Source: Christiangramia portivictoriae DSM 23547 (GTDB lineage: Bacteria > Bacteroidota > Bacteroidia > Flavobacteriales > Flavobacteriaceae). Taken from it: DNA of 64,000 bases. This document shows positions 14,670-35,949 of the stretch, piece after piece (position 1 is the stretch's first letter; every line of letters starts with the position of its first letter). Below the pieces are notes generated by a model. It ran no database searches. It saw nothing but the letters and a program-made list of their open reading frames with translations, and was not told the origin of the DNA. Where the stretch lies: contig NZ_KE383971.1 of assembly GCF_000423045.1 (NCBI RefSeq), positions 692,092 through 756,091 of the forward strand, read 5' to 3'. The translations under genes were made by a program, and so were the position numbers.

Positions 14670-15668
14670 TTGATAACTGACTCTCAGAAGGATTTATTGA
14701 AAGCATCCAAAGTACTTGTCACAGGTGGAGCAGGATTTATTGGTTCTAATCTTTGTGAAAAGCTTTTGGAATTTGGTGCTGAAGTAACCTGCCTGGATAA
14801 TTTTGCCACAGGTCATAAACATAACATAGAGCCTTTTCTTGAAAATCCAAATTTTCATTTTATAGAGGGTGATATCAGAAATTTGGAAACTTGTATCAAA
14901 GCGACCAAAAATCAGGATTTTGTTCTGCATGAAGCAGCTTTGGGCTCCGTCCCAAGATCTATTAATGATCCAATTACTAGTAACGATGTCAATGTTTCTG
15001 GTTTCTTAAATATGCTTGTAGCATCTCGTGATAATAGTATAAAACGCTTCGTGTACGCTGCAAGTTCATCAACTTATGGAGATTCTGAAAACCTTCCGAA
15101 GGTAGAAGATGTTATCGGTAAGCCATTGTCTCCTTATGCGATCACAAAATACGTCAATGAACTTTATGCTAATATCTTTAATAAATCTTATGGTCTAAAT
15201 ACGATTGGACTCCGTTATTTTAATGTATTCGGAAGACGACAGGATCCAAATGGAGCGTATGCAGCAGTGATCCCGAAATTCGTAATGCAGCTAATGAGAA
15301 AGGAAAGTCCTGTGATCAATGGAGATGGGACTTATTCCCGAGACTTTACCTACATCGATAATGTAGTGCAGATGAATTTACTTTGCTTAACAACAGATAA
15401 TAAACAAGCGCTCAACGAAGTTTATAACACAGCAGTGGGTGATCGAACAAACTTGAAAGAGTTGACACATCTATTGAAACAAAATTTAGCTCAGTATGAT
15501 TCAGATATATCTAGAGTTGAAATAAAACATGGTCCAAACAGACCAGGGGATATACCTCATTCATTGGCATCGGTAGAAAAGGCTAAAAAATTACTTAACT
15601 ATAATCCCACACATAGAATAGAGGATGGTCTGAAAGAGGCTACTCACTGGTACTGGGATAATTTATAG
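14670..15668 (+). CDS. UDP-GlcNAc/UDP-GlcNAcA C4-epimerase (WbpP/TviC-type SDR)
   Basis: Extended short-chain dehydrogenase that interconverts C4 epimers of UDP-N-acetylhexosamines. Rossmann motif GGAGFIG at about 18-24, the catalytic serine region SSSTYG and YxxxK (Tyr156, Lys160), and the SVPRS and DFTYIDN segments of the WbpP/TviC/Gne group. 332 residues from a TTG start, placed 26 bases after the -7 box; the first in-frame ATG is far inside the conserved core. It forms an operon with the dehydrogenase 4 bases downstream, the same pairing as tviB/tviC of the Vi capsule and wbpO/wbpP of Pseudomonas O6, which points to UDP-GalNAcA. Exact substrate is inferred. Confidence 0.87.
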   Translation: MITDSQKDLLKASKVLVTGGAGFIGSNLCEKLLEFGAEVTCLDNFATGHKHNIEPFLENPNFHFIEGDIRNLETCIKATKNQDFVLHEAALGSVPRSINDPITSNDVNVSGFLNMLVASRDNSIKRFVYAASSSTYGDSENLPKVEDVIGKPLSPYAITKYVNELYANIFNKSYGLNTIGLRYFNVFGRRQDPNGAYAAVIPKFVMQLMRKESPVINGDGTYSRDFTYIDNVVQMNLLCLTTDNKQALNEVYNTAVGDRTNLKELTHLLKQNLAQYDSDISRVEIKHGPNRPGDIPHSLASVEKAKKLLNYNPTHRIEDGLKEATHWYWDNL

Positions 15669-15672
15669 ACAA

Positions 15673-16956
15673 ATGAAAGACACAAAGAAAATAGCAGTTA
15701 TAGGTTTAGGCTATGTTGGATTACCACTTGCGAGACTTTTTTCAACTAGATTTCCTGTAGTTGGTTTTGATATTAATTCAGCTAGAGTTAAGGAATTAAT
15801 GTCCGGTATGGATTCTACGCTCGAAGTTGAAGATAAAGTATTACAAGCTTCCCTTAAAAATGAAAATTCTGACGACAAAGGCTTGTATTGTTCAGCAGAT
15901 CTTGATGATATAAAAGATTGTAATTACTACATTATTACCGTGCCAACACCTGTGGATAAAAATAATAGACCAGATCTTACTCCTTTGTATAAAAGTAGTG
16001 AAACTGTTGCCAAGGTCTTGTCCAAAGGTGATATTGTGGTTTATGAATCAACCGTATACCCAGGAGTGACAGAGGATGAATGCGTGCCGGTTCTGGAAAA
16101 ATTTTCGGGGTTAAAATTCAACGAAGATTTCTTCGTAGGATACTCTCCGGAAAGGATTAATCCGGGAGATAAGGAGCATACTGTAGAGAAAATATTAAAA
16201 GTAACCGCAGGGTCAACACCTGAAATAGGAGAACAGGTTAACAATCTGTATGCTGAGGTTATTACTGCCGGAACACACCTGGCACCAACTATTAAAGTAG
16301 CTGAAGCAGCAAAAGTGATTGAAAACTCTCAGAGAGATATCAATATCGCATTTGTAAATGAGCTTGCCAAGATATTTAATATGATGGGCATTGATACTCA
16401 GGATGTTCTGGAAGCAGCAGGTACAAAATGGAACTTTTTACCTTTTAAACCTGGATTAGTTGGAGGTCACTGTATAGGTGTAGATCCATATTATCTTGCA
16501 CAAAAAGCACAGGAGATTGGATATCATCCCGAGATTATTCTTGCAGGTAGAAGAATGAATGACAGTATGGGCCAATATGTGGCTTCGGAACTTGTTAAAC
16601 TAATGCTGCAGAATGATATCAAAGTAAAGGCTTCCAAAATTTTGATATTAGGAATTACATTTAAGGAAAACTGTCCTGATGTTCGTAACACGAAAGTAGT
16701 TGATGTTATCAAAAGTTTGAAAGAGTACGGAGTAGACATCACGATCTTTGACCCTCTAGCAAATCCAGCAGAAGTAAAACACGAATATGGATTAAATACC
16801 GTTAAAGACTTACCAAACGGAAAGTTTGATGCTATCCTGCTAACAGTTGCTCATAGAGAATTTTTGGAGCTAGACCTCGAAGATTTAAAACAACCTAATT
16901 CAGTTGTTTATGACGTAAAAGGAGTTTTGGGTGATAAATGTGATAAAAAATTATAA
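15673..16956 (+). CDS. UDP-N-acetylhexosamine 6-dehydrogenase (WbpO/TviB-type)
   Basis: NAD-dependent four-electron oxidation of UDP-GlcNAc or UDP-GalNAc at C6 to the uronic acid. 427 residues with N-terminal Rossmann motif GLGYVGLPLA, the central domain, the catalytic cysteine in GGHCIGVDPYY (Cys267) and the C-terminal UDP-binding domain (TFKENCPDVRNTK). The GGHCIGVDPYY form separates this VipA/TviB/WbpO group from UDP-glucose dehydrogenases (GFGGSCF). Four bases after the epimerase and directly abutting the next dehydrogenase gene, so clearly one operon. Confidence 0.9.
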   Translation: MKDTKKIAVIGLGYVGLPLARLFSTRFPVVGFDINSARVKELMSGMDSTLEVEDKVLQASLKNENSDDKGLYCSADLDDIKDCNYYIITVPTPVDKNNRPDLTPLYKSSETVAKVLSKGDIVVYESTVYPGVTEDECVPVLEKFSGLKFNEDFFVGYSPERINPGDKEHTVEKILKVTAGSTPEIGEQVNNLYAEVITAGTHLAPTIKVAEAAKVIENSQRDINIAFVNELAKIFNMMGIDTQDVLEAAGTKWNFLPFKPGLVGGHCIGVDPYYLAQKAQEIGYHPEIILAGRRMNDSMGQYVASELVKLMLQNDIKVKASKILILGITFKENCPDVRNTKVVDVIKSLKEYGVDITIFDPLANPAEVKHEYGLNTVKDLPNGKFDAILLTVAHREFLELDLEDLKQPNSVVYDVKGVLGDKCDKKL

Positions 16957-18351
16957 ATGAAGATTAAGAATATTTGTTGTATAGGTGCGGGATATGTTGG
17001 TGGCCCTACAATGGCTGTAATTGCTCAAAAGTGTCCGGAAATCAATGTTACAGTTGTAGATATCAACGACAAAAGAATTGCGGCCTGGAATGATGACAAT
17101 GTTGATAATATTCCAATTTATGAGCCAGGTTTATCTAGAGTCGTAGAAGAGGCCAGGGGGCGGAATCTATTTTTCTCAACCGATGTTGAAAAAGCTATAG
17201 ATCAGGCAGATATGATTTTCATCTCTGTCAATACGCCTACCAAAACATATGGTATCGGAAAAGGTATGGCAGCTGATCTTAAATTTATAGAGTTATGCGC
17301 CAGGCAGATCGCCAGAGTTGCCACGACAGACAAAATTGTAGTTGAGAAATCTACTTTACCAGTTCGAACTGCGGAAGCACTTAGAAACATTTTAGATAAT
17401 ACTGGAAATGGAGTAAAGTATCAAATCTTATCTAACCCTGAATTTTTAGCTGAAGGAACTGCTGTGGATGATTTAATGAATCCAGACAGAGTGCTAATTG
17501 GAGGGGATATAGATACAACTGAAGGAGCTGAAGCTGTAGAAGCTTTAGTAGATGTTTATGCGCATTGGATCGATCGTGAAAGAATTTTAACCACAAATGT
17601 TTGGTCGTCCGAATTGTCAAAATTAACTGCCAATGCATTTCTGGCACAACGTGTCTCAAGTATTAATTCACTATCTGAATTATGCGAGAAAACTGGTGCA
17701 GACGTAAACGAAGTAGCAAAAGCTGTAGGTATGGATTCAAGGATTGGTCCGAAATTTCTGCAGTCATCTGTTGGATTTGGTGGTTCATGTTTCCAGAAAG
17801 ATCTTTTAAACTTGGTTTATATTGCTAAGTCTTATGGACTTAATGAAGTGGCGGATTACTGGGAACAGGTGATTATCATGAATGATCACCAGAAAAAGAG
17901 GTTTGCGGCTAATATTGTAAAGACTTTGTTTAATACAGTATCCGGAAAGAAAATCGGAGTTTTGGGTTGGGCATTTAAAAAAGATACGAACGATACGAGA
18001 GAATCTGCCGCGATATATGTGGTTGACTATTTGCTAAACGAACAGGCAGATGTAGTAGTTTATGATCCTAAAGTTAATGCCGAGCAAGTCTACGCTGATC
18101 TGGATCATCTAAATACCCGATCAGAAGCTGAAAACAGGGCTCGGGTAACAGTAGTTAATTCTGCTATGGATGTTACTAAGGATGCTCACGCTGTCGCTGT
18201 ATTGACAGAATGGGATGAATTTAAAAGTTTAGACTGGTCATTGATTTATGATGATATGCTAAAGCCGGCATTTTTATTCGACGGTAGACGATTATTGAAC
18301 CGCGCAGAAAAAGAGAAAATTGGATTTGAATTTTATGCCATAGGATCTTAA
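16957..18351 (+). CDS. ugd: UDP-glucose 6-dehydrogenase, eukaryote-like type
   Basis: Makes UDP-glucuronate from UDP-glucose. 464 residues, longer than the E. coli Ugd (about 390) and like the animal/plant enzyme and its bacterial relatives. Rossmann motif GAGYVGGPT, the [16 protein letters not shown] segment characteristic of this longer type, catalytic cysteine in [10 protein letters not shown] (Cys278) and C-terminal [13 protein letters not shown]. Starts at the base after the stop of the preceding gene. With the two upstream genes it provides two different uronic acid nucleotides, suggesting an acidic glycan. Confidence 0.93.
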
Positions 18352-18420: not shown

Positions 18421-19260
18421 TTGAATGAGAACAAAGTAGTAGTCAATTTTTGTCCAACAGGAATGGTTCCGACAAAAAAAATGACGCCCCATATTCCAAT
18501 ATCACCTAATGAGATAATTGAGCAAACCCATGAGGCTTATGAAATAGGTATTACTATTGCGCATCTCCATGCCCGTGAGGAGAGCGGTGAGCCAACCTGG
18601 AAACCAGAAATATATCAGGAAATTTTTGAGGGTGTACGTAAACACTGTCCCGATCTTATAGTTTGCGGAAGTACCTCAGGAAGAAAATTTCCGGAATTTG
18701 AAAAACGTTCAGCGGTAATTGAATTAAAGCCAGACATGTGTTCCCTTACATTATCAAGTCTCAATTTTATGCGTCAGGCTTCAATGAATTCTCCGGATAT
18801 TATCGTGGAACTGGCTGAAAAGATGAAGGATTACGGAGTAGTACCCGAACTGGAGTGTTTTGATTTAGGAATGATTAATTATGGAAAATATTTAATCAGA
18901 AAGAAGATCATCGAAGGGCCTTATTATTGGAATCTTTTATTTGGAAATATTGCCGGATTTCAGGCAACCTATTCTCAGATAGGTGTAGCATTAAATGAAA
19001 TTCCTGAAGATGATTTTGTGGCCTTAGCAGGTTTGGGTTCAGATCAATTAAAAGTGAACTCTTCAGCAATTGCGATGGGATATAATGTAAGAATAGGACT
19101 AGAGGATAACATCTGGCTGGATGGTAATAAGATAAAGCAAGTCACCAATTTAGATTTGGTAAGAAGAACTCATAAATTTATAGAGGATAATCAAAAGAAA
19201 TTTTGGTCTCCGAAAGAATTCGGGGAGTTAGGATTTTATAATCGGAAATTTCGTGTATAG
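18421..19260 (+). CDS. BKACE (beta-keto acid cleavage enzyme, DUF849 family)
   Basis: Family enzymes condense a beta-keto acid with acetyl-CoA and release acetoacetate plus a new acyl-CoA; the founding member (Kce) acts in lysine fermentation on 3-keto-5-aminohexanoate. Visible: the zinc-binding HLH (AHLHARE, about residues 48-54), the GSTSGR and PEFEKRS segments and the third zinc ligand in RIGLEDN. 279 residues, normal length. Start is TTG at 18421; the ATG at 18425 is out of frame. The next gene starts 8 bases before its stop (translational coupling) and encodes an acyltransferase. No lysine-fermentation gene is near, so a role in making an acyl-CoA for sugar acylation is my inference. Confidence 0.85.
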   Translation: MNENKVVVNFCPTGMVPTKKMTPHIPISPNEIIEQTHEAYEIGITIAHLHAREESGEPTWKPEIYQEIFEGVRKHCPDLIVCGSTSGRKFPEFEKRSAVIELKPDMCSLTLSSLNFMRQASMNSPDIIVELAEKMKDYGVVPELECFDLGMINYGKYLIRKKIIEGPYYWNLLFGNIAGFQATYSQIGVALNEIPEDDFVALAGLGSDQLKVNSSAIAMGYNVRIGLEDNIWLDGNKIKQVTNLDLVRRTHKFIEDNQKKFWSPKEFGELGFYNRKFRV

Positions 19261-19909
19261 TAGTATTCAAATACTTGGTTTTGGACCCTATTATATTCCA
19301 GTTCTTTATGACCTAATTAGGCAAAATCGAATCTCAGACAACATTGAAGTATTCAAAAATTTACCATCGGTAGTAAAACCGATTATCAATACGAAACCTT
19401 TTGATCTAGTTATTCATGAAGGGGAATTAGTTTTAAACAAAGAAAGTCCTTGCGTTTTTGGAGTATCTGGAGGTAATAATAAGCACGGTGTTTTCGATTA
19501 TTTTCAGAAGAAATTTGATGTTACGGAACAGGCTTATATATCCTTAATTGATAATTCATGTAGTATAGCCTTGAGTACAGAAATAGGTTTGGGGTGCGTT
19601 TTCGAACAAAATATAAGTGTCTCTGCTCAGACTAAAGTTGGGTTCGGAGTTTCTGTGAAGCGAGGTGTTAGCATTGGACACCATTGCGTAATAGGGAACT
19701 TTGTGGATATTAATCCAGGTACTACAGTAGCTGGAAAAGTTGAAATCGGCCATGGAACTATTATTGGCGCCGGCTCAGTGATTTTGGATGGAGTTCAGAT
19801 TGGTGAAAATTCGATCATTGGTGCAGGAAGTATTGTGACCAAAAATATACCTTCAAACGTTATAGCATATGGAAGTCCCTGTAAAGTTGTTAGGGAAAAT
19901 GAGGTCTGA
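19253..19909 (+). CDS. Hexapeptide-repeat sugar acyltransferase (PglD/NeuD-like)
   Basis: 218 residues. An N-terminal alpha/beta part (ILGFGPYYIPVLYDLI start) is followed from about residue 95 by left-handed beta-helix hexapeptide repeats (VGFGVSVKRGVSIGHHCVIGNFV, PGTTVAGKVEIGHGTIIGAGSVI) and ends in the usual YGSPCKVVRE segment. His143 or His144 is the likely catalytic base. Family members transfer acetyl or longer acyl groups from CoA to the amino group of UDP/TDP-4-amino-6-deoxysugars. Start is GTG inside the end of the BKACE gene (8-base overlap). A substrate made by the WecE-type aminotransferase two genes downstream fits well. Acyl chain is unknown. Confidence 0.82.
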   Translation: MYSSIQILGFGPYYIPVLYDLIRQNRISDNIEVFKNLPSVVKPIINTKPFDLVIHEGELVLNKESPCVFGVSGGNNKHGVFDYFQKKFDVTEQAYISLIDNSCSIALSTEIGLGCVFEQNISVSAQTKVGFGVSVKRGVSIGHHCVIGNFVDINPGTTVAGKVEIGHGTIIGAGSVILDGVQIGENSIIGAGSIVTKNIPSNVIAYGSPCKVVRENEV

Positions 19910-19949
19910 TGCCTAATAAACTTTATCTTAAAATTTGAAATAAATTAAT

Positions 19950-20882
19950 TTGGAGAAACTTTACTCGATAGTGATACCTGTATTCAAGAGTGCCCAAAGC
20001 TTAGAGATTTTAATTTCTAAATTGGAGCACATTTCTAGAGATTACAAATATCGGCTAGAAGTGATTTTTGTGAATGACAGTCCACTTGAGTTGAGTACGG
20101 TAGCTACTCTGGAAAAAGTTAGAAAAAATTATACCTATGTTAAAGTATTAACTTTGTATAAGAATCAAGGGCAACAGATTGCTACGCTTGCAGGTATGTC
20201 CCAGGCCACAGGAGATTTCGTAATCACCATGGACGATGATCTACAACACTCTCCAGATGATATACCACTTCTAATTCAGACGTTACAGGATAAGAAAAAT
20301 CTTGATGGAGTTTTTGCAGTTCCTAATTATCTTCAAAAAAAACATAAGCTCTGGAGAAATTTTGCAAGTTTTTTTCTAAAGAAAGTGGATACAATTTTCT
20401 TGAAAAAACCTAAAGGTCTTATGTTGTCATCTTTCCGGATTTTGACAAAAGATTTAAATAAACTGATTGTTGAAAACCATAATGCAATGCCTTCTGTATC
20501 AAGTTTGATACTAAATGCTACTAATAATCTAATCAGTATTCATGTCAAACACCATCAAAGGGGTTTTGATAAGAGTAATTATTCTTTACCTCAACTGATT
20601 ACTCTTGCATTAAATACTATTTTACATTACTCTTCCATACCCTTAAGGATTATGGCATTTGTTGGACTGCTGGGCTTTATAGGTTCTATGATATTTATAT
20701 TATCAATCATTATTCGAAAATTGATGCTAGATATTGAGATTCCCGGCTATGCCTCTATAGTAACCCTTATTAGTTTCTTTGGAGGATTGAATCTGTTCGC
20801 TCTTGGACTTATTGGAGAGTATCTTATTCGTGTCATAAAGGAACAGCAAAAGATGAAACTTCCTGATCTAATAAAATCCTGA
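19950..20882 (+). CDS. Polyprenyl-phosphate glycosyltransferase (ArnC/GtrB/DPM1-like, GT2)
   Basis: 310 residues. N-terminal GT-A domain with SIVIPVFKS, FVNDSP and the metal-binding MDDDLQHSPDD, then two C-terminal membrane helices (about 232-257 and 268-292). This architecture is that of ArnC, GtrB and dolichol-phosphate-mannose synthase-like enzymes, which load a sugar from a nucleotide onto undecaprenyl phosphate for use outside the membrane. Start TTG at 19950. The GT-C gene two positions downstream is the expected partner that would use the lipid-linked sugar in the periplasm. Confidence 0.87.
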   Translation: MEKLYSIVIPVFKSAQSLEILISKLEHISRDYKYRLEVIFVNDSPLELSTVATLEKVRKNYTYVKVLTLYKNQGQQIATLAGMSQATGDFVITMDDDLQHSPDDIPLLIQTLQDKKNLDGVFAVPNYLQKKHKLWRNFASFFLKKVDTIFLKKPKGLMLSSFRILTKDLNKLIVENHNAMPSVSSLILNATNNLISIHVKHHQRGFDKSNYSLPQLITLALNTILHYSSIPLRIMAFVGLLGFIGSMIFILSIIIRKLMLDIEIPGYASIVTLISFFGGLNLFALGLIGEYLIRVIKEQQKMKLPDLIKS

Positions 20883-20887
20883 ACAAT

Positions 20888-22045
20888 ATGATTAATATTC
20901 CTTTTAATAAACCTTATTTAACAGGAAATGAAATCAAATACATCGAGGAAGCTGTTAAATCTGGAAAAATTTCAGGCAATGGGGACTTCACTAACAAATG
21001 TCAGAATTTCTTTCAGAAGAGATATGATTTCGGAAAATGCTTTTTAACTAGCTCCTGTACAGATGCTTTAGAGATGGCTGCTATTCTTTTAAATATTCAG
21101 CCAGGAGATGAAGTTATAATTCCTTCTTACACTTTTGTGAGTACTGCAAATGCTTTCGTTTTGAGAGGAGCTAAAATTGTATTTGTTGACAGCCGGGCTG
21201 ATCATCCCGGAATGGATGAAAAAAGTATTGAAGCTCTAATAACCTCAAAAACAAAAGTAATTGTTCCTGTTCATTATGCGGGTATTGCCTGTGATATGGA
21301 TATAATCATGGAGTTAGCAAAAAGGTATAATCTTGCAGTCGTTGAGGATGCGGCTCATGCTATAGATAGTTTTTATACAGGAAAAGATGGAGTGGAGAGA
21401 GCTTTGGGATCTATCGGTGATATGGCTGCCTTTTCTTTCCATGAGACAAAAAATATAATTTCTGGAGAGGGAGGTATGTTGGTTGTGAATAATAATAGAT
21501 ATCAAGAGAGAGCTGAAATTATTTGGGAAAAAGGAACAAACAGATCAGCATTTTATAGAGGAGAGGTAGACAAATATAATTGGGTTGATATAGGAAGTTC
21601 TTTTTTGCCTTCTGAAGTAACAGCCGCTTTTTTATGGGCTCAGTTAGAGAATCTCGAAAGAATCCAGTCAAAACGACTTCAGCTTTGGAAAAAATACAAT
21701 GAGGCTTTAAATTCTGTAGATATCAGGCATACTTTGAATCTTCCGGTAATTCCCAAATATGCTACAAATAATGCACATATATTTTATATTGTAACTTTAA
21801 ATACTCAGCATAGAGATGAAATAATACAGAGATTAAAATCAAAAGGTATTCTGGCAGTTTTTCATTATGTTAGTTTGCATGAAAGTCCATTTTACAGATC
21901 AAAAGTAAAGGATGAAAACCAGAATTTATCAAATTCGGCAAGGTATACAGAGTGTTTGTTAAGGCTTCCCTTATTTTTTGAATTACAACCGGAAATAATA
22001 AATCAAATAAGTAAAACCATAGATGAGGCTGCTGAAATTTTCTAA
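20888..22045 (+). CDS. wecE: dTDP-4-amino-4,6-dideoxygalactose transaminase (WecE/RffA-type)
   Basis: PLP enzyme converting dTDP-4-keto-6-deoxyglucose to dTDP-4-amino-4,6-dideoxygalactose (Fuc4N). 385 residues. The internal lysine lies in FSFHETKNIISGEGG (Lys188), where the HETKN form is typical for WecE rather than for Pgl/Leg/perosamine aminotransferases; also PGDEVIIPSYTF, EDAAHAID and the WVDIGSSFLPSE region. Five bases after the glycosyltransferase; the next gene overlaps its end by 23 bases. No rmlA/rmlB gene for the dTDP-sugar precursor is in this window, so it must come from elsewhere. Confidence 0.88.
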   Translation: MINIPFNKPYLTGNEIKYIEEAVKSGKISGNGDFTNKCQNFFQKRYDFGKCFLTSSCTDALEMAAILLNIQPGDEVIIPSYTFVSTANAFVLRGAKIVFVDSRADHPGMDEKSIEALITSKTKVIVPVHYAGIACDMDIIMELAKRYNLAVVEDAAHAIDSFYTGKDGVERALGSIGDMAAFSFHETKNIISGEGGMLVVNNNRYQERAEIIWEKGTNRSAFYRGEVDKYNWVDIGSSFLPSEVTAAFLWAQLENLERIQSKRLQLWKKYNEALNSVDIRHTLNLPVIPKYATNNAHIFYIVTLNTQHRDEIIQRLKSKGILAVFHYVSLHESPFYRSKVKDENQNLSNSARYTECLLRLPLFFELQPEIINQISKTIDEAAEIF

Positions 22046-23231
22046 TTTTTTATGGGGTTTTGTATTAGCCCTTTTGCTTGTCTTAAGTATAGCTTATTCA
22101 TTTATAAGTACAGATGCACCCTATTATTTATCTATGGCGCGAGATGTCTCCCGTGGTTATGCACCTTATAAAGATATTTTCACCAGTTACACGCCGGTAA
22201 TGATGTATCTTAATTCACTCGTCCATTATTTTATTGATACTCCATCTTACAAGCTTCTATTAACTTTTCAATATTTTGTTATAACAATAGGTGTAGTTTT
22301 TTTTTACCAAATATGCAGGAAAGAAGAGCTTGAAAGAAACCTATCCATTTTTCTAAGTCTACTATTGTTTATTGCTATTTTAAGTTCAGACGGGAGCTAT
22401 ATAAACCTCGAGGTTTATGTACTACTATTTACTTTCATTGCGTATTATCTTTTGATAAAAAAGAAATTCTTTTGGTGCGGTGTGTTTCTTGCTCTAGGTT
22501 TTTTTTCAAAGCAATATGGCGTCTTCAATTTTCTACCTTTTTTTCTGTTGATTATCGCTTACCATGGGTCTCATAGGAGTTATTTAGGCAAATTCATATT
22601 AGGGGGAGTTTTACCTTTATTAGTATTTCTAGCATACTTTGTCATCATAGAACAAGTAGAGTTTACAGATTTAGTTTTACAGTTAACAGGATCGGGATAT
22701 GATGATGAAATGATAGAATTAGAGACGACCTGGTTTAGGTTTCTCGCTGGGTCTAAAATTTTTTTATTATTATTGGTGCCTTTATTTTTTTCTGGCATTA
22801 AGCCATTTCGGAATAATATTGACATAATATTGATAATCGGAATTTTAGTTAATTTCTTACCCCTGTACATTCAGACGGTATCTCATTATTTTCTGCTGAC
22901 ATTTCCTTACGTGTTCATTTTAATGGCCCGAAATTTAAACTTATCAAATAAAAGATTCCTGGTAATGTCCAATCTAATATTGATTTTAATAGCAGGATTA
23001 TTGTTCACCCGAATATATAAATATAGAGATGTTTATAGTGAACAGCTGAAGCTCGCAATAGAAACCAGAAAGCAATACCCGGTAGGATCTGACGTTTTTC
23101 TTTATAAACACTTCAGGTTTCTATATATTCTTAATGATTACCGAAATCCTGTTCTTGAAGAAATAGGCTATAGGTATGGGTTTGAACCCGATGATGAGTT
23201 TAAAAAACGATACAAAGTTTTATCAAGATAA
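22023..23231 (+). CDS. GT-C-type membrane glycosyltransferase candidate
   Basis: 402-residue polytopic membrane protein with about ten hydrophobic helices. After the first helix comes a loop with STDAPYYLSMARDVSRGYAPYKD, the position and style (acidic residue, aromatic, later GxxPYxD) of the first periplasmic loop of GT39/GT83-type enzymes such as ArnT, which use undecaprenyl-phosphate sugars. A further FFSKQYG segment is reminiscent of that superfamily. A C-terminal soluble tail (about 330-402) is present. The start ATG lies inside wecE (23-base overlap). I infer it transfers the sugar loaded by the ArnC-like enzyme; acceptor is unknown. It ends module A. Confidence 0.7.
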   Translation: MRLLKFSNFLWGFVLALLLVLSIAYSFISTDAPYYLSMARDVSRGYAPYKDIFTSYTPVMMYLNSLVHYFIDTPSYKLLLTFQYFVITIGVVFFYQICRKEELERNLSIFLSLLLFIAILSSDGSYINLEVYVLLFTFIAYYLLIKKKFFWCGVFLALGFFSKQYGVFNFLPFFLLIIAYHGSHRSYLGKFILGGVLPLLVFLAYFVIIEQVEFTDLVLQLTGSGYDDEMIELETTWFRFLAGSKIFLLLLVPLFFSGIKPFRNNIDIILIIGILVNFLPLYIQTVSHYFLLTFPYVFILMARNLNLSNKRFLVMSNLILILIAGLLFTRIYKYRDVYSEQLKLAIETRKQYPVGSDVFLYKHFRFLYILNDYRNPVLEEIGYRYGFEPDDEFKKRYKVLSR

Positions 23232-23409: not shown

Positions 23410-25200
23410 TTGCTAAAGAAAATTGCCTATAAATATTTTGAAAGCCTGGTCTATTTTTATAGACACCTGGGATACAAGGTTTTTATTGTTTTTGGATTCA
23501 GCATTGTTATTGGTGTTTTGGATAGCTTAGGTTTAACTATGTTTTTGCCTTTGCTGCAAATGGTAAATGATTCTTCAGCTATTAGTGCTGAGGAACTCGG
23601 CCGATTAAGTTTCTTATTGGATATATTCGAATCTGCCAGGATAGATTTAACTCTCCTGTCTGTATTATTAATTATGTCTTCTTTTTTTCTTGTGAAGGGG
23701 CTAGTTTATTATCTAGCTGGAATTTATAGAGTAAATGTGCAAGAAGGATTTATTGATCGCTTAAGAACAACAAATCTAAAAGGTTTAAATTCTATAACAT
23801 ATAAATATTTTATTGGTTCTGATGTTGGGCGAATTCAGAATACTTTGACCGGCGAGGTAGACAGAGTTGCAAATGCTTTTAAATTTTATTTTCGAGCATT
23901 GCAGAATGTGATTATGATTATGATTTATATGGTCTTTGCCTTTCTAATAGATGCTCAATTTGCCATATTGGTTACAATAGGTGGAGTTATTGCTAATTTT
24001 TTATATAAAAGATTCTACGATCAAACAAAGAAATCATCTCGAATACTTACTGGAGAGGCTAATACCTTTCAGAGTCTTGTAATTCAAAATGTAGCAAATT
24101 ATAAATATTTAAAAGCAACCGGATCTTTGAGTGTTTATCAACAAAAACTTCTTGGATACATAGAAAAAATAAAGGATAGTAATAAGCGTATTGGGAAGCT
24201 GGATGCATCATTAACAGCAGGAAGGGAGCCACTACTGGTTTTGATAGTAGTAAGTATAATTTACATACAAACAAGTTTGCTTGGATCTGGGCTTGGACCT
24301 ATTCTAATAAGTCTTATTTTCTTCTACAGGGCCCTTAATTATCTTCTTCAAATGCAAATGGATTGGAATCGATTTTTAGCAGTCTCTGGTTCCGTTGAAA
24401 ATATCACCTCCTTTGAGAAAGAAATGAGGAAAAATAAGGAAGATATTGGAGCTCATGAGGTTACCGAACCTATTGAAAGTTTGTCATTACGAAATATTTC
24501 TTTTGAATATGGGAATACTGTGGTGCTGAAAAATATTGATCTTGAGATCTCAAAGTGCCAAACGATCGGTTTTGTAGGGGAAAGTGGTAGTGGTAAAACA
24601 ACTTTAATTAATATTATTGCAGGCTTACTGACTGTTAACAGCGGTCAGTATTTGATTAATGGTATAAATAGTGACAATTTGAATCTTGAAACCTTTCAGA
24701 AAAAGATTGGTTACATTACTCAGGATTCGATTATTTTTAATGATTCTTTATTTAATAACATAACTTTCTGGGCTGAAAAAACAGAAGAAAACCTACAAAA
24801 ATTTTGGGAAGTTATAACTAAAACTGCTTTATTAAATTTTGTGAATTCACTGCCAGAGAAGGAGAACGAAGTTCTAGAGCATAATGGGATCAATTTAAGC
24901 GGAGGGCAAAAACAACGAATTTCTATAGCACGGGAACTATTTAAAGAAGTGGATATATTGCTTCTAGACGAAGCTACTTCAGCCTTGGATTCAGAGACTG
25001 AAAGTATAATTCAGAGAAATATGGAAGACCTGAAAGGGGACTACATTATCCTGGTAGTTGCACATCGGATCGCCACAATTAAAAATGCCGATAAGATTTT
25101 GGTTGTTGAAAAAGGTAAGATTATCAAATCTGGTAATTATGAAGATCTAATTAAGAAATCAGAATATTTTAAAAACCTCGTTAGATTGCAACAATTATAA
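23410..25200 (+). CDS. ABC exporter, membrane and ATPase domains fused (MsbA/PglK-like)
   Basis: 596 residues: six-helix membrane domain (about 20-320) and ATPase domain (about 355-596) with Walker A GESGSGKTT (Lys396), signature LSGGQKQR, Walker B ILLLDEATSALD and the switch His in VVAHR. This half-transporter forms a dimer. Relatives flip lipid A (MsbA), lipid-linked oligosaccharides (PglK) or other lipids. Being first in the module next to a Wzx-type flippase, a PglK-like role is likely. Start TTG at 23410; an upstream leader of about 75 bases carries a palindrome at its promoter. Confidence 0.85.
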   Translation: MLKKIAYKYFESLVYFYRHLGYKVFIVFGFSIVIGVLDSLGLTMFLPLLQMVNDSSAISAEELGRLSFLLDIFESARIDLTLLSVLLIMSSFFLVKGLVYYLAGIYRVNVQEGFIDRLRTTNLKGLNSITYKYFIGSDVGRIQNTLTGEVDRVANAFKFYFRALQNVIMIMIYMVFAFLIDAQFAILVTIGGVIANFLYKRFYDQTKKSSRILTGEANTFQSLVIQNVANYKYLKATGSLSVYQQKLLGYIEKIKDSNKRIGKLDASLTAGREPLLVLIVVSIIYIQTSLLGSGLGPILISLIFFYRALNYLLQMQMDWNRFLAVSGSVENITSFEKEMRKNKEDIGAHEVTEPIESLSLRNISFEYGNTVVLKNIDLEISKCQTIGFVGESGSGKTTLINIIAGLLTVNSGQYLINGINSDNLNLETFQKKIGYITQDSIIFNDSLFNNITFWAEKTEENLQKFWEVITKTALLNFVNSLPEKENEVLEHNGINLSGGQKQRISIARELFKEVDILLLDEATSALDSETESIIQRNMEDLKGDYIILVVAHRIATIKNADKILVVEKGKIIKSGNYEDLIKKSEYFKNLVRLQQL

Positions 25201-25227
25201 TATGAAGGGGTTTAATAAAAGATTTAT

Positions 25228-26664
25228 ATGTCGTTAAGAAAACAGGCGCAGTCTGGAATGGTATGGACCTTTGCGGAGCAGTTCGGCAATCAGATTATTG
25301 GTTTTATTGTATCCTTGATTTTAGCAAGGATTCTCATGCCAGCAGAGTTTGGATTAATAGGAATGATTGCTATTCTCGTTGGTCTGGGCAGAGTATTAGT
25401 TGATTCTGGTCTGACCCAATCTTTAATTAGAAACAAGGATTGCGATCAGGAAGATTATTCTACTGTTTTTTATTTCAACCTCGCTAGTAGTATATTAATA
25501 TATGCGATAGTGTATTTTTTAGCTCCTTTGGTAGCAGACTTTTATGATCAAATAATTTTAATTGATATAATTAGGATATATTGTTTGACATTCATACTAT
25601 CTGCCTTTTCAGCTGTGCAACTTGCAAGATTAACAAAAAAAATGAATTTCAAAGTTCAAACTCTTATAACTCTTCCTGCAAATATTGTTGGTGGTGGCGT
25701 GGGAATTGCTATGGCCTATGGAGGTTATGGGGTTTTTAGCTTAGTATGGAGCCAGGTCCTTATTTCTGCGATTAGTACGGTCCAGTTGTGGTTTTATTCT
25801 AGATGGAAACCAGATCTATCTTTCAGTATTTCCAAATTCAAAGAACATTTCAACTATGGCTACAAATTGGCTATTTCAGGAGTTATGGATGTTCTATTTA
25901 AAAATGCATATATATTAGTAATTGGTAAATTCTTTTCTGCTTCTCAGGTTGGTTTTTATACTCGGGCAGAAACAATGAAGCAATTACCAGTTAATAATAT
26001 CAGCAATGCTCTTAAGAAGGTTACTTTTCCCTTATTCGCTTCTATTCAGGAGGATAATTTGAGATTAAAGCGTGTTAGTAAGAATCTCATGCAAATGGTA
26101 GTTTATGTATTAACTCCACTTCTAATATTAGTGGCTGTATTGGGAGAGCCAATATTTCGCTTTCTTTTTACCGAGAAGTGGCTGCCGGCCGTTCCCTATT
26201 TTCAAATATTGTGCGTTACGGGAATTTTGCGCCCAGTAATTTCTTATAACTTAAATGTATTAAAAGTAAAAGGACGAAGCGACCTTATTTTGAAATTGAA
26301 GGTATTTGAAAAACTTTTTATAGTGGCTGGTATATTAATTGGTTTACAATTTGGCATTTACGGTCTTTTGTATTCACAGGTTATTGTAATCTTCATTACA
26401 TTTTTGATGAATGCATTTTATGTTAATAAATTTATAGATTTTCCAGTGTTGGAACAATTAATTGCCATAGCACCTATATTAATTCTTTCCATTGGATGTG
26501 GTATTGGCGTTTATTTTTTAGATTCGTTTTTACAGACCTATGCAGATTTTATTAGAATTATATCCGGAGGAAGTTTAGGTCTTATTGCTTACATAGGTAT
26601 TAGCTGGATTTCTAAGATGGAAAGTTTTCTTTATTTTAAAAACCTGGTATTTAAAAAAATATAA
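25228..26664 (+). CDS. Wzx-type polysaccharide flippase (WzxC/TuaB-like)
   Basis: 478-residue membrane protein with about 14 helices, MOP superfamily. The start region (AQSGMVWTFAEQFGNQIIGFIVSLILARIL followed by PAEFGLIGM) is characteristic of WzxC/TuaB/MviN-like exporters. It would flip undecaprenyl-linked oligosaccharide units to the periplasmic face. 27 bases downstream of the ABC exporter gene and 13 bases upstream of the legB-like gene, so in the same transcript. Two different flipping proteins in a row is unusual. Confidence 0.88.
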   Translation: MSLRKQAQSGMVWTFAEQFGNQIIGFIVSLILARILMPAEFGLIGMIAILVGLGRVLVDSGLTQSLIRNKDCDQEDYSTVFYFNLASSILIYAIVYFLAPLVADFYDQIILIDIIRIYCLTFILSAFSAVQLARLTKKMNFKVQTLITLPANIVGGGVGIAMAYGGYGVFSLVWSQVLISAISTVQLWFYSRWKPDLSFSISKFKEHFNYGYKLAISGVMDVLFKNAYILVIGKFFSASQVGFYTRAETMKQLPVNNISNALKKVTFPLFASIQEDNLRLKRVSKNLMQMVVYVLTPLLILVAVLGEPIFRFLFTEKWLPAVPYFQILCVTGILRPVISYNLNVLKVKGRSDLILKLKVFEKLFIVAGILIGLQFGIYGLLYSQVIVIFITFLMNAFYVNKFIDFPVLEQLIAIAPILILSIGCGIGVYFLDSFLQTYADFIRIISGGSLGLIAYIGISWISKMESFLYFKNLVFKKI

Positions 26665-26677: not shown

Positions 26678-27865
26678 ATGAAAACTTTAGAATTAATAGG
26701 TCGATCAGAACCTTTATTTAAAAAAGATTTACTATCTAATAAAAAGGAGTTAGAACAAATAGTCGCAGGCTCTAGCTTTTTGGTATTGGGGGGTGCAGGT
26801 TCAATTGGCCAAGCAGTAACCAAAGAAATCTTCAAAAGAAATCCAAAGAAACTTCATGTCGTAGATATTAGTGAAAATAATATGGTAGAACTGGTAAGGG
26901 ACATCCGAAGTTCTTTTGGTTATATAGATGGAGACTTTCAGACCTTTGCCCTGGATATAGGTTCCCTGGAATACGAAGCTTTTATTAAGGCTGATGGAAA
27001 ATATGATTACGTTCTAAATTTATCGGCTTTAAAACATGTGAGGAGTGAAAAAGATCCATTTACCTTGATGCGAATGATAGATGTAAATATCTTTAATACC
27101 GATAGAACCATTGAACAGAGTATCAAAAATGGCACAAAAAAATATTTTTGCGTTTCTACAGATAAGGCAGCCAATCCTGTGAATATGATGGGGGCATCAA
27201 AGCGGATTATGGAAATGTTTTTGATGCGAAGAAGTAAAGAGATAAATATTTCCACAGCTCGTTTCGCTAACGTAGCATTTTCTGATGGATCATTGCTTCA
27301 CGGTTTCAATCAAAGGATTCAAAAAAAACAACCCATAGTTGCTCCAAATGATGTGAAGCGCTATTTCGTTACCCCACAGGAAAGTGGTGAATTATGTTTA
27401 ATGTCCTGCATCTTTGGAGAAAACAGAGATGTTTTTTTTCCAAAATTGAGTGAAAAGCTTCATCTAATATCTTTTGCAGATGTTGCAGTGAAGTATTTAG
27501 CACAATTAGGTTATAAGGCCCATTTATGTAAAGATGAGGAGGAGGCAAGGAGTTTAATTCATAGCCTACCCGAAAAGGGAAAATGGCCATGTCTTTTTAC
27601 CGGAAGCGATACCACAGGAGAGAAAAATTTTGAAGAGTTTTTTACTGATGAAGAAATTTTAGATCTTAAAAGCTTTAAAAACCTTGGGGTTATTAAAAAT
27701 GAATTAAATATAGAAGAAGAAAAATTAAATTTGTTTGAGGATAAAATAAAGGAGTTAAGAGATACTAAAGTCTGGAAAAAAGATGAAATAGTAGATTTGT
27801 TCCTCAAAATGATTCCCGACTTCGGTCATAAAGAGACCGGAAAATATCTAGATTCTAAAATGTAA
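26678..27865 (+). CDS. legB: Nucleotide-sugar 4,6-dehydratase, LegB-like
   Basis: SDR-family 4,6-dehydratase starting the nonulosonate pathway by making a 4-keto-6-deoxy-GlcNAc nucleotide. 395 residues; Rossmann motif GGAGSIGQA near residue 39 and STDKAANPVNMMGASK, in which methionine replaces the SDR tyrosine, as in PglF/WbpM-type dehydratases and unlike PseB (tyrosine). This fits retention of the C5 configuration and hence legionaminic rather than pseudaminic acid. A C-terminal extension (about 310-395) is charged. Overlaps the aminotransferase gene by one base (TAATG). Whether the nucleotide is GDP (as in Campylobacter Leg synthesis) or UDP is not visible, though ptmE in the operon suggests GDP. 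Confidence 0.82.
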   Translation: MKTLELIGRSEPLFKKDLLSNKKELEQIVAGSSFLVLGGAGSIGQAVTKEIFKRNPKKLHVVDISENNMVELVRDIRSSFGYIDGDFQTFALDIGSLEYEAFIKADGKYDYVLNLSALKHVRSEKDPFTLMRMIDVNIFNTDRTIEQSIKNGTKKYFCVSTDKAANPVNMMGASKRIMEMFLMRRSKEINISTARFANVAFSDGSLLHGFNQRIQKKQPIVAPNDVKRYFVTPQESGELCLMSCIFGENRDVFFPKLSEKLHLISFADVAVKYLAQLGYKAHLCKDEEEARSLIHSLPEKGKWPCLFTGSDTTGEKNFEEFFTDEEILDLKSFKNLGVIKNELNIEEEKLNLFEDKIKELRDTKVWKKDEIVDLFLKMIPDFGHKETGKYLDSKM

Positions 27866-29007
27866 TGAAAGAATTTAAAGAGACTATTTCCTTTATTCAG
27901 GATTATTATAAAACCAAAGATTTTATTCCTCTACACGAACCTCGTTTTCGGGGTAACGAGAAAAAATATGTGATGGATGCGGTTAATTCTACTTTTGTTT
28001 CCTCAGTGGGAGCTTATGTTGATAAGTTTGAAGAAATGATGGAAAGTATCAGTAGAGCCAAAAAAGCAGTAGCGGTTGTAAACGGAACTTCGGGATTACA
28101 AGTAGCCCTACGTTTGGCTGGTGTTAGTTCGGGAGACGAGGTAATTACTCAAGCACTTACTTTCGTAGCGACTGCAAATGCTATTGCCTACAATAATGCC
28201 CACCCCGTTTTTCTTGATGTTGATTTAGATACAATGGGTCTTTCACCGGATGCCGTAGAGAATTTTCTAGAAGAGTATGGGGAAATTAGGGGGGGAGCTT
28301 GTTTTAATAAAAGAACCAAAAAGAAAATTGCAGCCTGTATGCCTATGCATACTTTTGGTTTTCCTGTTAAAATAGATGAGCTTTTAGAAATTTGTAAGCA
28401 ATGGAAAATCCCGGTTGTTGAGGATGCCGCAGAGTCCCTGGGAAGTTATTATAAAGATCAACCTACAGGATCATTTGGAAAACTAGGGGTGTTTTCATTT
28501 AATGGTAACAAAATTGTAACTAGTGGCGGTGGTGGTGCAATAGTTACAAATAATATTGGACTTGGAGAAAAAGCAAAATACCTGACTACCACAGCAAAAA
28601 AGCCGCATACCTATGAATATGTGCATGATGAGTTAGGGTATAATTACAGAATGCCTAACTTAAATGCTGCCTTAGCTTGTGCGCAGTTGGAAAATCTCAA
28701 TATGTTTATTGAAAAGAAAAGAGAGTTAGCAGGAAAATATATCAGTTTCTTTGAAAATACTAATATTAAGTTTAGACAGGAAATGAAGGGAACGAAAACA
28801 AATTATTGGTTAATGGCTATACAATTGGAAAACAGAGAGGAACGAGATTTATTTCTTCAAACTACCAATGAAGCTAAAGTTATGACTCGTCCGATTTGGC
28901 AGCTTATGTATAAGCTGCCTATGTATCAGGACTGCTTTAAGGATGATCAAAAGAATGCGGAATTTCTGGAAGATAGAATAGTAAATATTTCAAGTAGTGT
29001 TCAATAA
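27865..29007 (+). CDS. legC: LegC-family aminotransferase
   Basis: PLP-dependent aminotransferase adding the 4-amino group to the product of the LegB-like dehydratase. 380 residues, DegT/DnrJ/EryC1 fold with PGDEV-like SSGDEVITQALTF, the EDAAESLGS aspartate motif and the internal lysine in FNGNKIVTSGGGG (Lys216). The N-terminus (FIQDYYKTKDFIPLHEPRF) is characteristic of LegC proteins, which differ from PglE in an extra insert with a CMPMHTFG segment, seen here. Coupled to the dehydratase by a 1-base overlap; next gene 5 bases on. Confidence 0.88.
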   Translation: MKEFKETISFIQDYYKTKDFIPLHEPRFRGNEKKYVMDAVNSTFVSSVGAYVDKFEEMMESISRAKKAVAVVNGTSGLQVALRLAGVSSGDEVITQALTFVATANAIAYNNAHPVFLDVDLDTMGLSPDAVENFLEEYGEIRGGACFNKRTKKKIAACMPMHTFGFPVKIDELLEICKQWKIPVVEDAAESLGSYYKDQPTGSFGKLGVFSFNGNKIVTSGGGGAIVTNNIGLGEKAKYLTTTAKKPHTYEYVHDELGYNYRMPNLNAALACAQLENLNMFIEKKRELAGKYISFFENTNIKFRQEMKGTKTNYWLMAIQLENREERDLFLQTTNEAKVMTRPIWQLMYKLPMYQDCFKDDQKNAEFLEDRIVNISSSVQ

Positions 29008-29012
29008 ATAAA

Positions 29013-29651
29013 ATGACATATTTAATTTTTTCAGATATCCACGGGAATCTTCCGGCTTTTGAAGCTGTTTTACATCATGAGTCAAACGTTGAGGGTTACA
29101 TTAATTTGGGTGACGTAGTAAATTATGGGCCCTGGAGTAATGAATGTGTACAAATTATAGATTCCCTTCATAATTGTTATAATATAATTGGTAACCACGA
29201 AACTTATTTCAAATCAGGCATATGTGATGTTGAAAATCAACTAGTGCAATCTTTTTTTAACCAAACTTTTAAATCCTTTAAGGAAAATTCTAAAATAAAA
29301 AAATATGAAACAAGCATTAATTTAGAGGGATTTGAACTAGTTCATACATTAAATCAAAAGGAGTACATATTTCGAGATTCACAAATAGAAGTTCATAAGA
29401 ATACAATGTTGGGGCATTCTCACCAGCAGTACTTACGATATTTTGGAGATAAACTTCTTCTAAACCCAGGCAGTATAGGACAAAATAGAAAATTCATTAA
29501 TCTAAGTAATTATGCTCTATGGAATATTGATACTGGGGAAATTCAATTGAAAATGAAAAAATATAATATAGATCACCTACTGGATAAAATGAGAGAGGAA
29601 GATTATCCTAAAGAGTGTCTGGCGTATTATAATAATAAAAAACGATATTAA
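29013..29651 (+). CDS. YfcE/MJ0936-like metallophosphoesterase
   Basis: 212 residues, no signal peptide. Calcineurin-like metal motifs SDIHGN (residues 7-12), GDVVNYGP, GNHE and the C-terminal GHSHQQ are present, so it should be an active two-metal phosphoesterase or phosphodiesterase in the cytoplasm. It lies inside the nonulosonate operon, between legC and an ATP-grasp gene, with a 1-base overlap to the latter. No known nonulosonate pathway step needs such an enzyme; substrate could be a phosphorylated or nucleotide-linked sugar intermediate. Base composition is strongly AT-rich by eye, as in the following genes. Confidence 0.83.
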   Translation: MTYLIFSDIHGNLPAFEAVLHHESNVEGYINLGDVVNYGPWSNECVQIIDSLHNCYNIIGNHETYFKSGICDVENQLVQSFFNQTFKSFKENSKIKKYETSINLEGFELVHTLNQKEYIFRDSQIEVHKNTMLGHSHQQYLRYFGDKLLLNPGSIGQNRKFINLSNYALWNIDTGEIQLKMKKYNIDHLLDKMREEDYPKECLAYYNNKKRY

Positions 29652-30625
29652 TGGTATATAATGTTGGTATAACAGGGACGGGAAGCTTAATAGGTCAAGG
29701 CATAATCAAAAGTATTCAGGATGATTCGATTTCAGAGAAATGCCACTTAGTAGGGTTTGATTATTTTGAAAATACGGTGGGATCATTTTGGTGCCACAAA
29801 AATTATATATTACCAGATATATTAAAGTCAGAAGTTACTGAAGATCAATGGTTAGGTGAATTATTAGAAACTATTAAGCAGGAAAGAATTCAAATACTAT
29901 TCATTGGAGTGGATTTTGAACTACCAATTTTGGCAAAGCATAGGGAATCTATAAGGGAAAAATACGGATGTGAGGTGATAGTTAGTAGTCCAGATGTTAT
30001 TAGAATTGGTAATGATAAGTTTAATACTTATGAATTTCTAAAAGAGCATAACCTCTACTATCCTAAGACTTCAATAGCCAAGGAAACTATTTCCGATGAA
30101 ATTGAATATCCAGTAATTATGAAACCACGTGTAGGAGCAAGGAGCGTAGGTGTTTATAAAATCAAAAACCAAAATGATTTTAAAGATAAGATTGGTAAAG
30201 TAAACGGAGCAATTATCCAAGAGTTAATTGGGGATGATTATACAGAATACACTTGTGGTATTCTATGCATTGAAGGAGAAATTAAAGGAAGTATTATTTT
30301 AAATAGAAGTTTAAAAGGAGGAAATACATTCACAAGTGAGTATAGAAAAGATTATCCGGAAATTATAATAGAATATATAGAAGAAATAGCAAAGAATCTG
30401 AAGCCACATGGATCTTGCAATTTACAGCTTCGACTTGGCACTGATGGGATCCCAAAACTTTTTGAAATTAATCCCAGGCACTCTGGTACAACCTATATGA
30501 GGACATTATTTGGATATAAAGAAGTGGTGTTTTTGCTTAAGTATTATCTGGAAAAAACTGAGATTTCTTTTGACCTGAAGCCAGGAAAAGCTCTCCGTTT
30601 CTACCAAGAAAAACTCATTAAATGA
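29651..30625 (+). CDS. ATP-grasp ligase of unknown substrate
   Basis: 324 residues with a pre-ATP-grasp domain (GITGTGSLIGQGI start; about 1-115) and an ATP-grasp domain (about 116-300): YPVIMKPRVGARSVGVY is the nucleotide-binding lysine and glycine loop, IIQELIGDDYTEYT the adenine region, and CNLQLRLG and FEINPRHSG the metal-binding end. Similar to carbamoyl-phosphate-synthase-like ATP-grasp proteins of surface polysaccharide loci. Expected chemistry is ATP-driven bond formation between a carboxylate and an amine; a candidate job is amide-linking an acid or amino acid to an amino sugar. Translationally coupled on both sides. Confidence 0.83.
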   Translation: MVYNVGITGTGSLIGQGIIKSIQDDSISEKCHLVGFDYFENTVGSFWCHKNYILPDILKSEVTEDQWLGELLETIKQERIQILFIGVDFELPILAKHRESIREKYGCEVIVSSPDVIRIGNDKFNTYEFLKEHNLYYPKTSIAKETISDEIEYPVIMKPRVGARSVGVYKIKNQNDFKDKIGKVNGAIIQELIGDDYTEYTCGILCIEGEIKGSIILNRSLKGGNTFTSEYRKDYPEIIIEYIEEIAKNLKPHGSCNLQLRLGTDGIPKLFEINPRHSGTTYMRTLFGYKEVVFLLKYYLEKTEISFDLKPGKALRFYQEKLIK

Positions 30626-31434
30626 AAATTTTAATTTTAGGAGTAAGTGGGTTTATAGGGGGAAATCTATATAAGAAATTGAGCGAGAAAGCAACTGTTT
30701 ATGGTCTATCTCGTTCTAAGGTGGCCCTGGAAAGATGTAAGACAGCTGATTTTTCAAAGGAATTTAATATCGACAAATTATTTCCTAATATTAAGTTTGA
30801 CGTTGTTATAAATTTGGCTTCTGTAATGGCAAATAGCAAGAATTTACAGGATTTGGAAGATTTGCTCATTGGAAACATCAAAATGACGGGTAATATAATC
30901 GAAGCCTTAAGGTCTCAACCAAATAGTTATCTTATCAATTTTTCTAGTACAGCAGTCTACCCTAACATCACGGGAATTTTTACTGAGGCATCGATTGTAG
31001 ACCCCTCAAAAAATACAGATGCTTTATACGGCTTGTCTAAGTTTAATAGCGAAGTTCTTTTTAATTATTTGCTTTCGGAAGGACAAAAAGTAATTCACCT
31101 TAGAACTTCATATGTTTATGGTGAAGGAATGGATGAAACTAGAATTCATAAAATGTTTGAGAAGGAACTCAAAGCTAAAAATACTATTACCATTTTTGGA
31201 AATGGAGAAAGGATGATTCCTCAAGTGAGTATTTCTTACCTAGTTGAAAAAGTTTCATTTATAATACAAAACAAACCTGTGGGGATTAAGAATTTGGTTG
31301 AAGAGAATATTCTTTTACAGGATTATGCCAAGCGTTTAGTTGACAAATTTGGTAATGAAAAGAGCACTTTAATTTTTGTAGAAAAGGGCAACCGTCAAAA
31401 ATTTCAAGTAGAATCTATAAATCACGAAAAATGA
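30622..31434 (+). CDS. NAD(P)-dependent epimerase/dehydratase-family protein
   Basis: 270-residue extended SDR. Nucleotide-binding motif GVSGFIGG (residues 7-14), active-site serine in NFSSTAVYP, and YGLSKFNSE giving YxxxK. Later segments GNGERMIPQVSISYL match the substrate-binding part of sugar-nucleotide epimerases or reductases. Shorter than the usual 300-340. ATGA overlap with both neighbours. Could be a C4 epimerase, or a 4-keto reductase of RmlD type; substrate not readable. It is one of the four additional genes in the legionaminic-type operon. Confidence 0.82.
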   Translation: MKILILGVSGFIGGNLYKKLSEKATVYGLSRSKVALERCKTADFSKEFNIDKLFPNIKFDVVINLASVMANSKNLQDLEDLLIGNIKMTGNIIEALRSQPNSYLINFSSTAVYPNITGIFTEASIVDPSKNTDALYGLSKFNSEVLFNYLLSEGQKVIHLRTSYVYGEGMDETRIHKMFEKELKAKNTITIFGNGERMIPQVSISYLVEKVSFIIQNKPVGIKNLVEENILLQDYAKRLVDKFGNEKSTLIFVEKGNRQKFQVESINHEK

Positions 31435-35917: not shown

Positions 35918-35949
35918 TAAATGATATCCGAAAATCTAAAGTATAAAGA

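Follow-up and report, generated by a model that had tools for sequence, protein, structure and literature searches.

A BKACE-acyltransferase gene pair in Bacteroidota as a putative acyl-donor module for surface amino sugars

Here we report a clade of beta-keto acid cleavage enzymes (BKACEs; family DUF849) whose genes stand beside that of a divergent acyltransferase (AT) in all 30 loci found, one of them in a 64,000-nucleotide stretch of the Christiangramia portivictoriae DSM 23547 genome (contig NZ_KE383971.1, positions 692,092 to 756,091), which we call the window. The two proteins most likely form a portable module of acyl-CoA supply and N-acyl transfer, which in this bacterium is probably used for TDP-Fuc4N. 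The AT-linked BKACE clade and the active-site signature of its partner are new here; the open-access literature searched held no report of a BKACE as a source of acyl donors for glycans, nor of DUF849 tied to glycan synthesis.

The first-pass annotation of the window had placed five open reading frames here, the first two overlapping by 8 bases, and this arrangement was confirmed. At the level of sequence, the gene pairing, the family assignments, the conserved catalytic residues and the presence of RmlA and RmlB in the genome are established. The five genes are:

18421-19260, + strand: BKACE (DUF849) of the AT-linked clade, TTG start (PF05853, 256 bits; conserved residues; tree)
19253-19909, + strand: AT, a divergent NeuD/PglD-family left-handed beta-helix acyltransferase, GTG start (profile, PDB relatives, residue signature)
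19950-20882, + strand: family 2 glycosyltransferase (GT2), ArnC/sll0501-like (PF00535; PRK10714 under cut-off; PDB 5ekp, 9bhc)
20888-22045, + strand: WecE-family TDP-4-keto-6-deoxyglucose 4-aminotransferase, expected product TDP-Fuc4N (TIGR02379, PRK11706; PDB 4piw, 6blg)
22023-23231, + strand: polytopic membrane protein without a family match, likened to GT-C on position alone (hydropathy; Gillisia counterpart)

In the scheme that we favour, BKACE would convert a cellular beta-keto acid and acetyl-CoA into acetoacetate and a specific acyl-CoA other than acetyl-CoA, and AT, related to PglD, PerB and VioB but remodelled, would use this acyl-CoA to N-acylate an amino-deoxysugar carried on a nucleotide. 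In the window's genome the acceptor would most likely be TDP-Fuc4N, which RmlA, RmlB and the cluster's own WecE would produce; the ArnC-like GT2 would pass the acylated sugar to polyprenyl phosphate, and the membrane protein would add the sugar to a glycan on the outer side. Taken whole, as an acylation module that joins an acyl group other than acetyl to an amino-deoxysugar bound for a lipid carrier, this scheme seems to us about evenly poised between right and wrong.

Few of the odd acyl groups on bacterial surface sugars have a known origin. A pair as strict and portable as this one offers a direct handle on the question: its two soluble proteins can be assayed for acyl group and acceptor, and the answer could then be used to predict, in part, the glycans of about thirty strains. 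If true, the scheme would tie DUF849 enzymes to glycan synthesis. More tentatively, and with rather more doubt than confidence, we suggest that a whole DUF849 subfamily may have been recruited to glycan biosynthesis, making a dedicated acyl-CoA for a co-inherited acyltransferase and so placing an acyl group new for these bacteria on surface amino sugars across Bacteroidota, with near-clade relatives paired with GNAT proteins.

A BKACE clade inherited with an acyltransferase

The clade comprises the window's locus, L002-L026, L048, L050, L051 and L052, from 29 genomes (L007 and L012 share one); 28 loci belong to Bacteroidota, the others to Balneolota (L019) and to a metagenome-assembled genome (MAG) of Sericytochromatia (L024). 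A scan of contigs yielded 29 BKACE relatives, 25 of them with AT, and genome searches brought four more. An AT homologue lies beside BKACE in 30/30 loci, in most cases with an overlap or a gap of only a few bases, and because it recurs throughout the clade this neighbourhood exceeds chance. In the window the GTG start of AT at 19253 precedes the TAG stop of BKACE at 19258-19260, and the same 8-base overlap is found again in L002, L003, L015 and L017. Other arrangements occur: a GT2 gene intervenes in L010, L012 and L014, and AT lies ahead of BKACE in L052 and, separated from it by an ATP-grasp gene, in L019. Two ATs are broken, that of L012 (11650-12500), a second Algoriphagus yeomjeoni copy, by a stop codon together with loss of the residue signature described below, and that of L024 (10700-11700) by a frameshift.

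No clade-type AT was seen in 50 BKACE loci outside the clade, most of which come with flanks of just 1.5 kb or so on either side of the gene. These were nine fusions of about 450-510 amino acids, which from their length we take to be Kal-Kce, 27 other loci of Bacteroidia (out of 34 non-clade matches, seven of which gave no locus), four near-clade loci (L027-L030) and ten loci from 582 plasmid records; the weak fragments L071-L074 were excluded. The near-clade stretches are short, L028 ending 60 bases past BKACE and L029 and L030 starting inside it. In the reverse direction, an AT profile run against 59 relatives scored 281 and 300 bits in the two BKACE carriers, and the next best AT reached 138. 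The first-pass annotation had named a lack of such co-occurrence in other genomes as grounds for abandoning its idea; BKACE and a hexapeptide acyltransferase do co-occur elsewhere, whichever of them leads the search.

In a BKACE tree of 79 rows (L030, too short, was omitted), the AT-linked enzymes fall on one side of one branch with a single change of label, at a support of 78/72 when the long-branched L052 is included, and 29 of the 30 form a clade at 100/97. For AT, 24 of the 30 sequences were aligned (alignment A1), leaving out the decayed L012, the frameshifted L024, and L008, L009, L026 and L048; the AT tree held these 24 and six others. Over the 24 loci, BKACE and AT distances correlate (r 0.66, 0 of 2000 permutations), with a contribution from species kinship. 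Two odd pairings recur in both trees, that of L015 with L025, Winogradskyella with Chitinophaga (99/95 and 96/88), and that of L013 with L020, Saprospiraceae with Flavobacteriaceae (84/89 and 83/71). The pair is present in 2 of 24 genomes of the window's genus (23 others were searched and G413 was positive, with the same BKACE and AT sequences as the Christiangramia MAG locus L003) and in 6 of 395 genomes of a phylum-wide sample, a patchy distribution that fits a surface-glycan trait. Functional coupling of BKACE and AT is, in our judgement, close to certain.

Active sites of the two partners

The window's BKACE, the sole PF05853 match in a 3.27 Mb genome of eight contigs, exceeds the curated cut-off of that model (24.8 bits) by a wide margin at 256 bits. 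Its predicted zinc ligands H48, H50 and E228 and the catalytic E145 are aligned and kept in 30/30 clade members. Kce, BKACE15 and the 3-oxoadipate:acetyl-CoA acetyltransferase share with it the family, the zinc ligands and the catalytic Glu; the clade differs from the long fusions and plasmid BKACEs in carrying Q181 where those have Pro. At the site of Kce Glu14, V/I is found here, which was tried as a guide to the substrate; the nine long fusions have V/I there too, so that an aminoacyl product is not excluded by it. Two further candidate substrates were set aside. A lysine route was sought through PF09043, which was found in 0/7 carriers, 0/4 genomes with a fusion and 0/14 controls and is thus uninformative, and a uronic acid was considered on account of TviB and Ugd, genes of which adjoin the pair in 2/30 loci only.

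The roles of the zinc ligands and the catalytic Glu are taken from the cited parts of PMC12871164 and PMC11961710, with sites matched by alignment; the base of BKACE15, Glu E171, aligns with E145 (PMC11961710). According to the cited part of PMC12871164, a 2026 preprint, BKACEs have a Tyr (Kce Tyr145) that is replaced by Phe in the divergent BsfD, and its loss is tied to the divergent chemistry of that enzyme. Tyr is found in Kce 2y7d and in 3lot; the window has F147, and Phe occupies the site in all 80 DUF849 rows aligned, including nine long fusions and eight plasmid enzymes, which contradicts the claim, made in that part of the preprint, of Tyr in all BKACE sequences. As for products, the family is described in the cited part of PMC11961710 as turning 5-hydroxy-beta-ketohexanoate into 3-hydroxybutyryl-CoA and, in a new-to-nature reaction, malonate semialdehyde into formyl-CoA, and glyceryl-CoA has been proposed in deoxyribonate use (PMC6365646, in the part cited). 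In the literature consulted, BKACEs have catabolic or engineered roles or, as BsfD, serve a phosphonate pathway; members of the window's clade go with an acyltransferase and in many loci with glycan genes.

AT scores 120.4 bits against TIGR03570 (NeuD/PglB/VioB), below the curated cut-off of 160.8, and its nearest solved chains by profile, with E values down to 1e-29, are PerB, PglB, VioB and PglD, amino-sugar N-acetyltransferases to which it is thus homologous. A predicted structure (pLDDT 72) has PglB, PglD, PerB, VioB and WeeI as its top Foldseek matches, which points to a PglD/PerB-type fold at modest scores (E 1e-3 and above, TM 0.37-0.57, rmsd 6.5-10). Residue H143 aligns with H141 of PerB, for which structures of the H141N and H141A mutants exist. 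In 28/28 intact linked ATs this His is followed by a second, H144, and preceded by R137; PerB and PglB have D and VioB has G in place of the second His, and all three have T in place of the Arg. R137 and H143-H144 occur together in 0/28 paralogues from genomes without BKACE (the 28 relatives that yielded a locus, of 57), one of which has His-His without the Arg. The 28 include L008, L009, L026 and L048, which the alignment had left out; the signature is present too in the first piece of the frameshifted L024, and the L012 remnant has H-R instead of H-H. We read the signature as a remodelled active site, which is no proof of a larger acyl group.

Sugar context and the probable acceptor

The aminotransferase encoded at 20888-22045 passes both curated cut-offs (TIGR02379, 518.5 bits against 434.85; PRK11706, 563 against 375), so that it is, by sequence, a genuine member of the WecE family, as first annotated. 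Its substrate is made by RmlA and RmlB, whose genes lie adjacent to each other outside the cluster. The GT2 matches Glycos_transf_2, has sll0501 and ArnC as solved relatives and about two membrane segments by hydropathy, and is probably a polyprenyl-phosphate sugar synthase; the earlier label of ArnC-like stands, though it is not ArnC itself (PRK10714, 114.7 bits against 529 required). The GT-C label given to the membrane protein could not be confirmed: a simple hydropathy count gives about eight membrane segments, no Pfam match was listed even at E 10 and no PDB relative at E 1, and an AlphaFold model built from two sequences was unusable (pLDDT 45.6). Gillisia (L002) encodes a 70% identical counterpart in the same position. 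A lipid-carrier step we place a little short of an even prospect.

Glycosyltransferase, sugar-aminotransferase or nonulosonate genes occur within about eight genes of the pair in 19/30 loci (the window's, L002, L007, L010-L015, L017, L019, L021-L023, L025, L048, L050-L052). A DegT-family sugar aminotransferase is near the pair in 13/30, two of these being fragments and that of L011 recognised by BLAST only; a WecE over the TIGR02379 cut-off is near it in 4/30 (the window's, L002, L013 and L048), and two Lacibacter aminotransferases pass PRK11706 only. L013 has WecE, a PMT_2 protein, an ArnC-like GT2, BKACE and AT in an order different from that of the window. In L051 the pair is adjoined by FdtA, a DegT aminotransferase, GT2, GtrA and a PMT_2 protein, a context that suggests a 3-amino sugar. 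Within the phylum-wide sample, WecE over the cut-off is found in 4/6 carriers vs 46/389 others (one-sided Fisher p 0.003, kinship ignored).

In E. coli, WecE and WecD (models TIGR02379 and TIGR02382) make Fuc4NAc, and WecE acts on TDP-4-keto-6-deoxyglucose as would that of the window, but AT has another fold than WecD and a BKACE partner. A. kandeliae has, apart from its pair, a cassette of GT2, GNAT, WecE and membrane protein in which the GNAT, with WecD as best match under the cut-off, occupies the slot held by AT in the window; the membrane protein has no significant similarity to that encoded at 22023-23231. The slot beside WecE can thus be filled by different acyltransferases, which supports the role of AT in the window and equally shows that Fuc4N need not be the acceptor wherever the pair occurs. 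Precedents exist for unusual N-acyl groups on sugars of this kind: the Flavobacterium psychrophilum O-antigen carries 3,5-dihydroxyhexanoyl on Qui2NAc4N, with predicted dedicated genes and a PglD homologue (PMC6519341, in the part cited), and the Qui4N of a Shewanella glycan bears 3-hydroxybutyryl or 3-hydroxy-3-methylbutyryl, depending on the medium (the cited part of PMC3210612). The F. psychrophilum WfpG system resembles the window in that a PglD-like acyltransferase is accompanied by genes devoted to making an uncommon acyl donor; that donor is predicted in the cited part of PMC6519341 to arise by fatty-acid-type synthesis on acyl carrier protein, whereas the window would use BKACE and CoA.

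Several observations weigh against this scheme. The linked ATs form one group with weak support (69/39) because of the long-branched L052, 23 of the 24 holding together at 96/93 without it; L018 is placed differently in the BKACE and AT trees; and near the clade, in L054 and L055, BKACE is followed by a methyltransferase and not an acyltransferase. No recurrent neighbour making a beta-keto acid was recognised among the neighbours scanned, many others lying outside the scan. The NeuD model covers AT residues 63-211 only, so that nucleotide-sugar binding by AT is putative. We saw no glycan gene next to the pair in any of the six Marinifilum loci (those neighbours of L004 that were scanned encode a dihydroorotate dehydrogenase and a DUF294/CBS protein), and the scanned neighbours of L003, L018, L020 and L024 included none recognised as such. 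Of the four WecE-positive carriers in the phylum-wide sample, G000 and G203 have WecE beside the pair, G111 and G158 on another contig; WecE was missing over the TIGR02379 cut-off in 10/15 further carrier genomes, none of four Marinifilum being positive (several of the 15 are partial MAGs, and G790 is G111 again). A formyltransferase adjoins WecE in a Winogradskyella MAG (L154), where the pair is elsewhere, and a WecD-like GNAT adjoins the pair near WecE in G203 (L048), so that there, as in A. kandeliae, the pair may serve another acceptor.

These points bear most on the choice of acceptor. The first-pass annotation had BKACE supply an unusual acyl-CoA for Fuc4N, which would then be loaded on lipid and transferred as a side branch. 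The pairing, the kinship of AT with amino-deoxysugar N-acetyltransferases, the genuine WecE and RmlA/RmlB lend this partial support, but a fixed link of the pair to Fuc4N does not hold, given the Marinifilum loci, where no glycan gene was seen with the pair, and the other acyltransferases found with WecE in A. kandeliae and Winogradskyella. The pair might instead acylate another amino sugar, a lipid or a small metabolite, WecE adjacency being one of several glycan contexts, as the Marinifilum loci, the carriers lacking WecE proper, the different aminotransferase types of L051 (with FdtA), L017, L019 and L052, and the dissimilarity of AT to the NeuD model before residue 63 would suggest; an aminotransferase in 13/30 loci, glycan genes in 19/30 and the identity of the closest solved AT relatives argue otherwise, and we find this alternative unlikely, if worth keeping in view. 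Acyl supply for an amino sugar is what we infer as the probable function of the pair, with Fuc4N as its acceptor in the window's genome an even call.

That the DUF849 protein instead makes a 1,3-diketone in the manner of BsfD, by transfer of acetyl with decarboxylation, and AT acts on another substrate, would agree with F147 and with the importance given to the lost Tyr in the cited part of PMC12871164. Phe is no mark of BsfD chemistry, however, and its diagnostic value is doubtful, since it is present also in the fusions and in the plasmid enzymes, four of which sit in protocatechuate operons; with the base Glu of BKACE15 kept as E145 besides, we consider this reading improbable. A catabolic BKACE, serving amino acid or aromatic breakdown and lying in a glycan locus by accident, is more improbable still: four of the eight plasmid BKACEs outside riboflavin clusters are in protocatechuate operons and two more stand with ring-cleavage dioxygenases, but these belong to another clade, and the window's enzyme is the only BKACE match of its genome, in a clade with an AT at every locus.

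Surrounding genes and BKACEs outside the clade

The five genes lie within a larger glycan locus, flanked by:

14670-18351, + strand: upstream nucleotide-sugar genes, a TviC-like epimerase and TviB-like and Ugd-like dehydrogenases (profile matches)
23410-26664, + strand: ABC transporter and Wzx-type flippase, downstream in this glycan locus (PF00005/PF00664, PF13440)

The upstream genes have identical order in Gillisia L002, where the order of the whole window block is kept. Positions 26678-36738 hold what we take, from the reading frames, to be a legionaminic-acid-like set (LegB, LegC, NeuB, NeuC, PtmE-like and a CMP-sugar synthetase), interrupted by presumed phosphoesterase-like, ATP-grasp-like and dioxygenase-like genes. 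In G203, L048 (2058-8202) and L164 encode a run of three proteins that resemble one another and match LuxE/AMP-binding weakly (one was scanned, under the cut-off), and two LPG_synthase_TM proteins are found near the pair besides the WecD-like GNAT.

Just outside the clade, in L027, L029 and L030 (KSB1 and Acidobacteriota), BKACE is directly followed by GNAT, an acyltransferase of another fold. These stretches (L027 344-3110, L029 2-1360, L030 2-1879) represent a second, unrelated BKACE-acyltransferase pairing, with a methyltransferase after the GNAT in L027 and L030. The ten plasmid loci comprise four protocatechuate operons, two loci with ring-cleavage dioxygenases, two riboflavin-type clusters and two with neither. 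The riboflavin-type clusters are L054 (Salmonella plasmid pRSE21, 3474-9841) and L055 (a Streptomyces plasmid, 1-7691), whose BKACE homologues are 46% and 39% identical and whose annotated genes include RibA, riboflavin synthase, gamma-glutamyltransferase, a SAM methyltransferase and, in L055, RosB; they are possible flavin-antimetabolite clusters.

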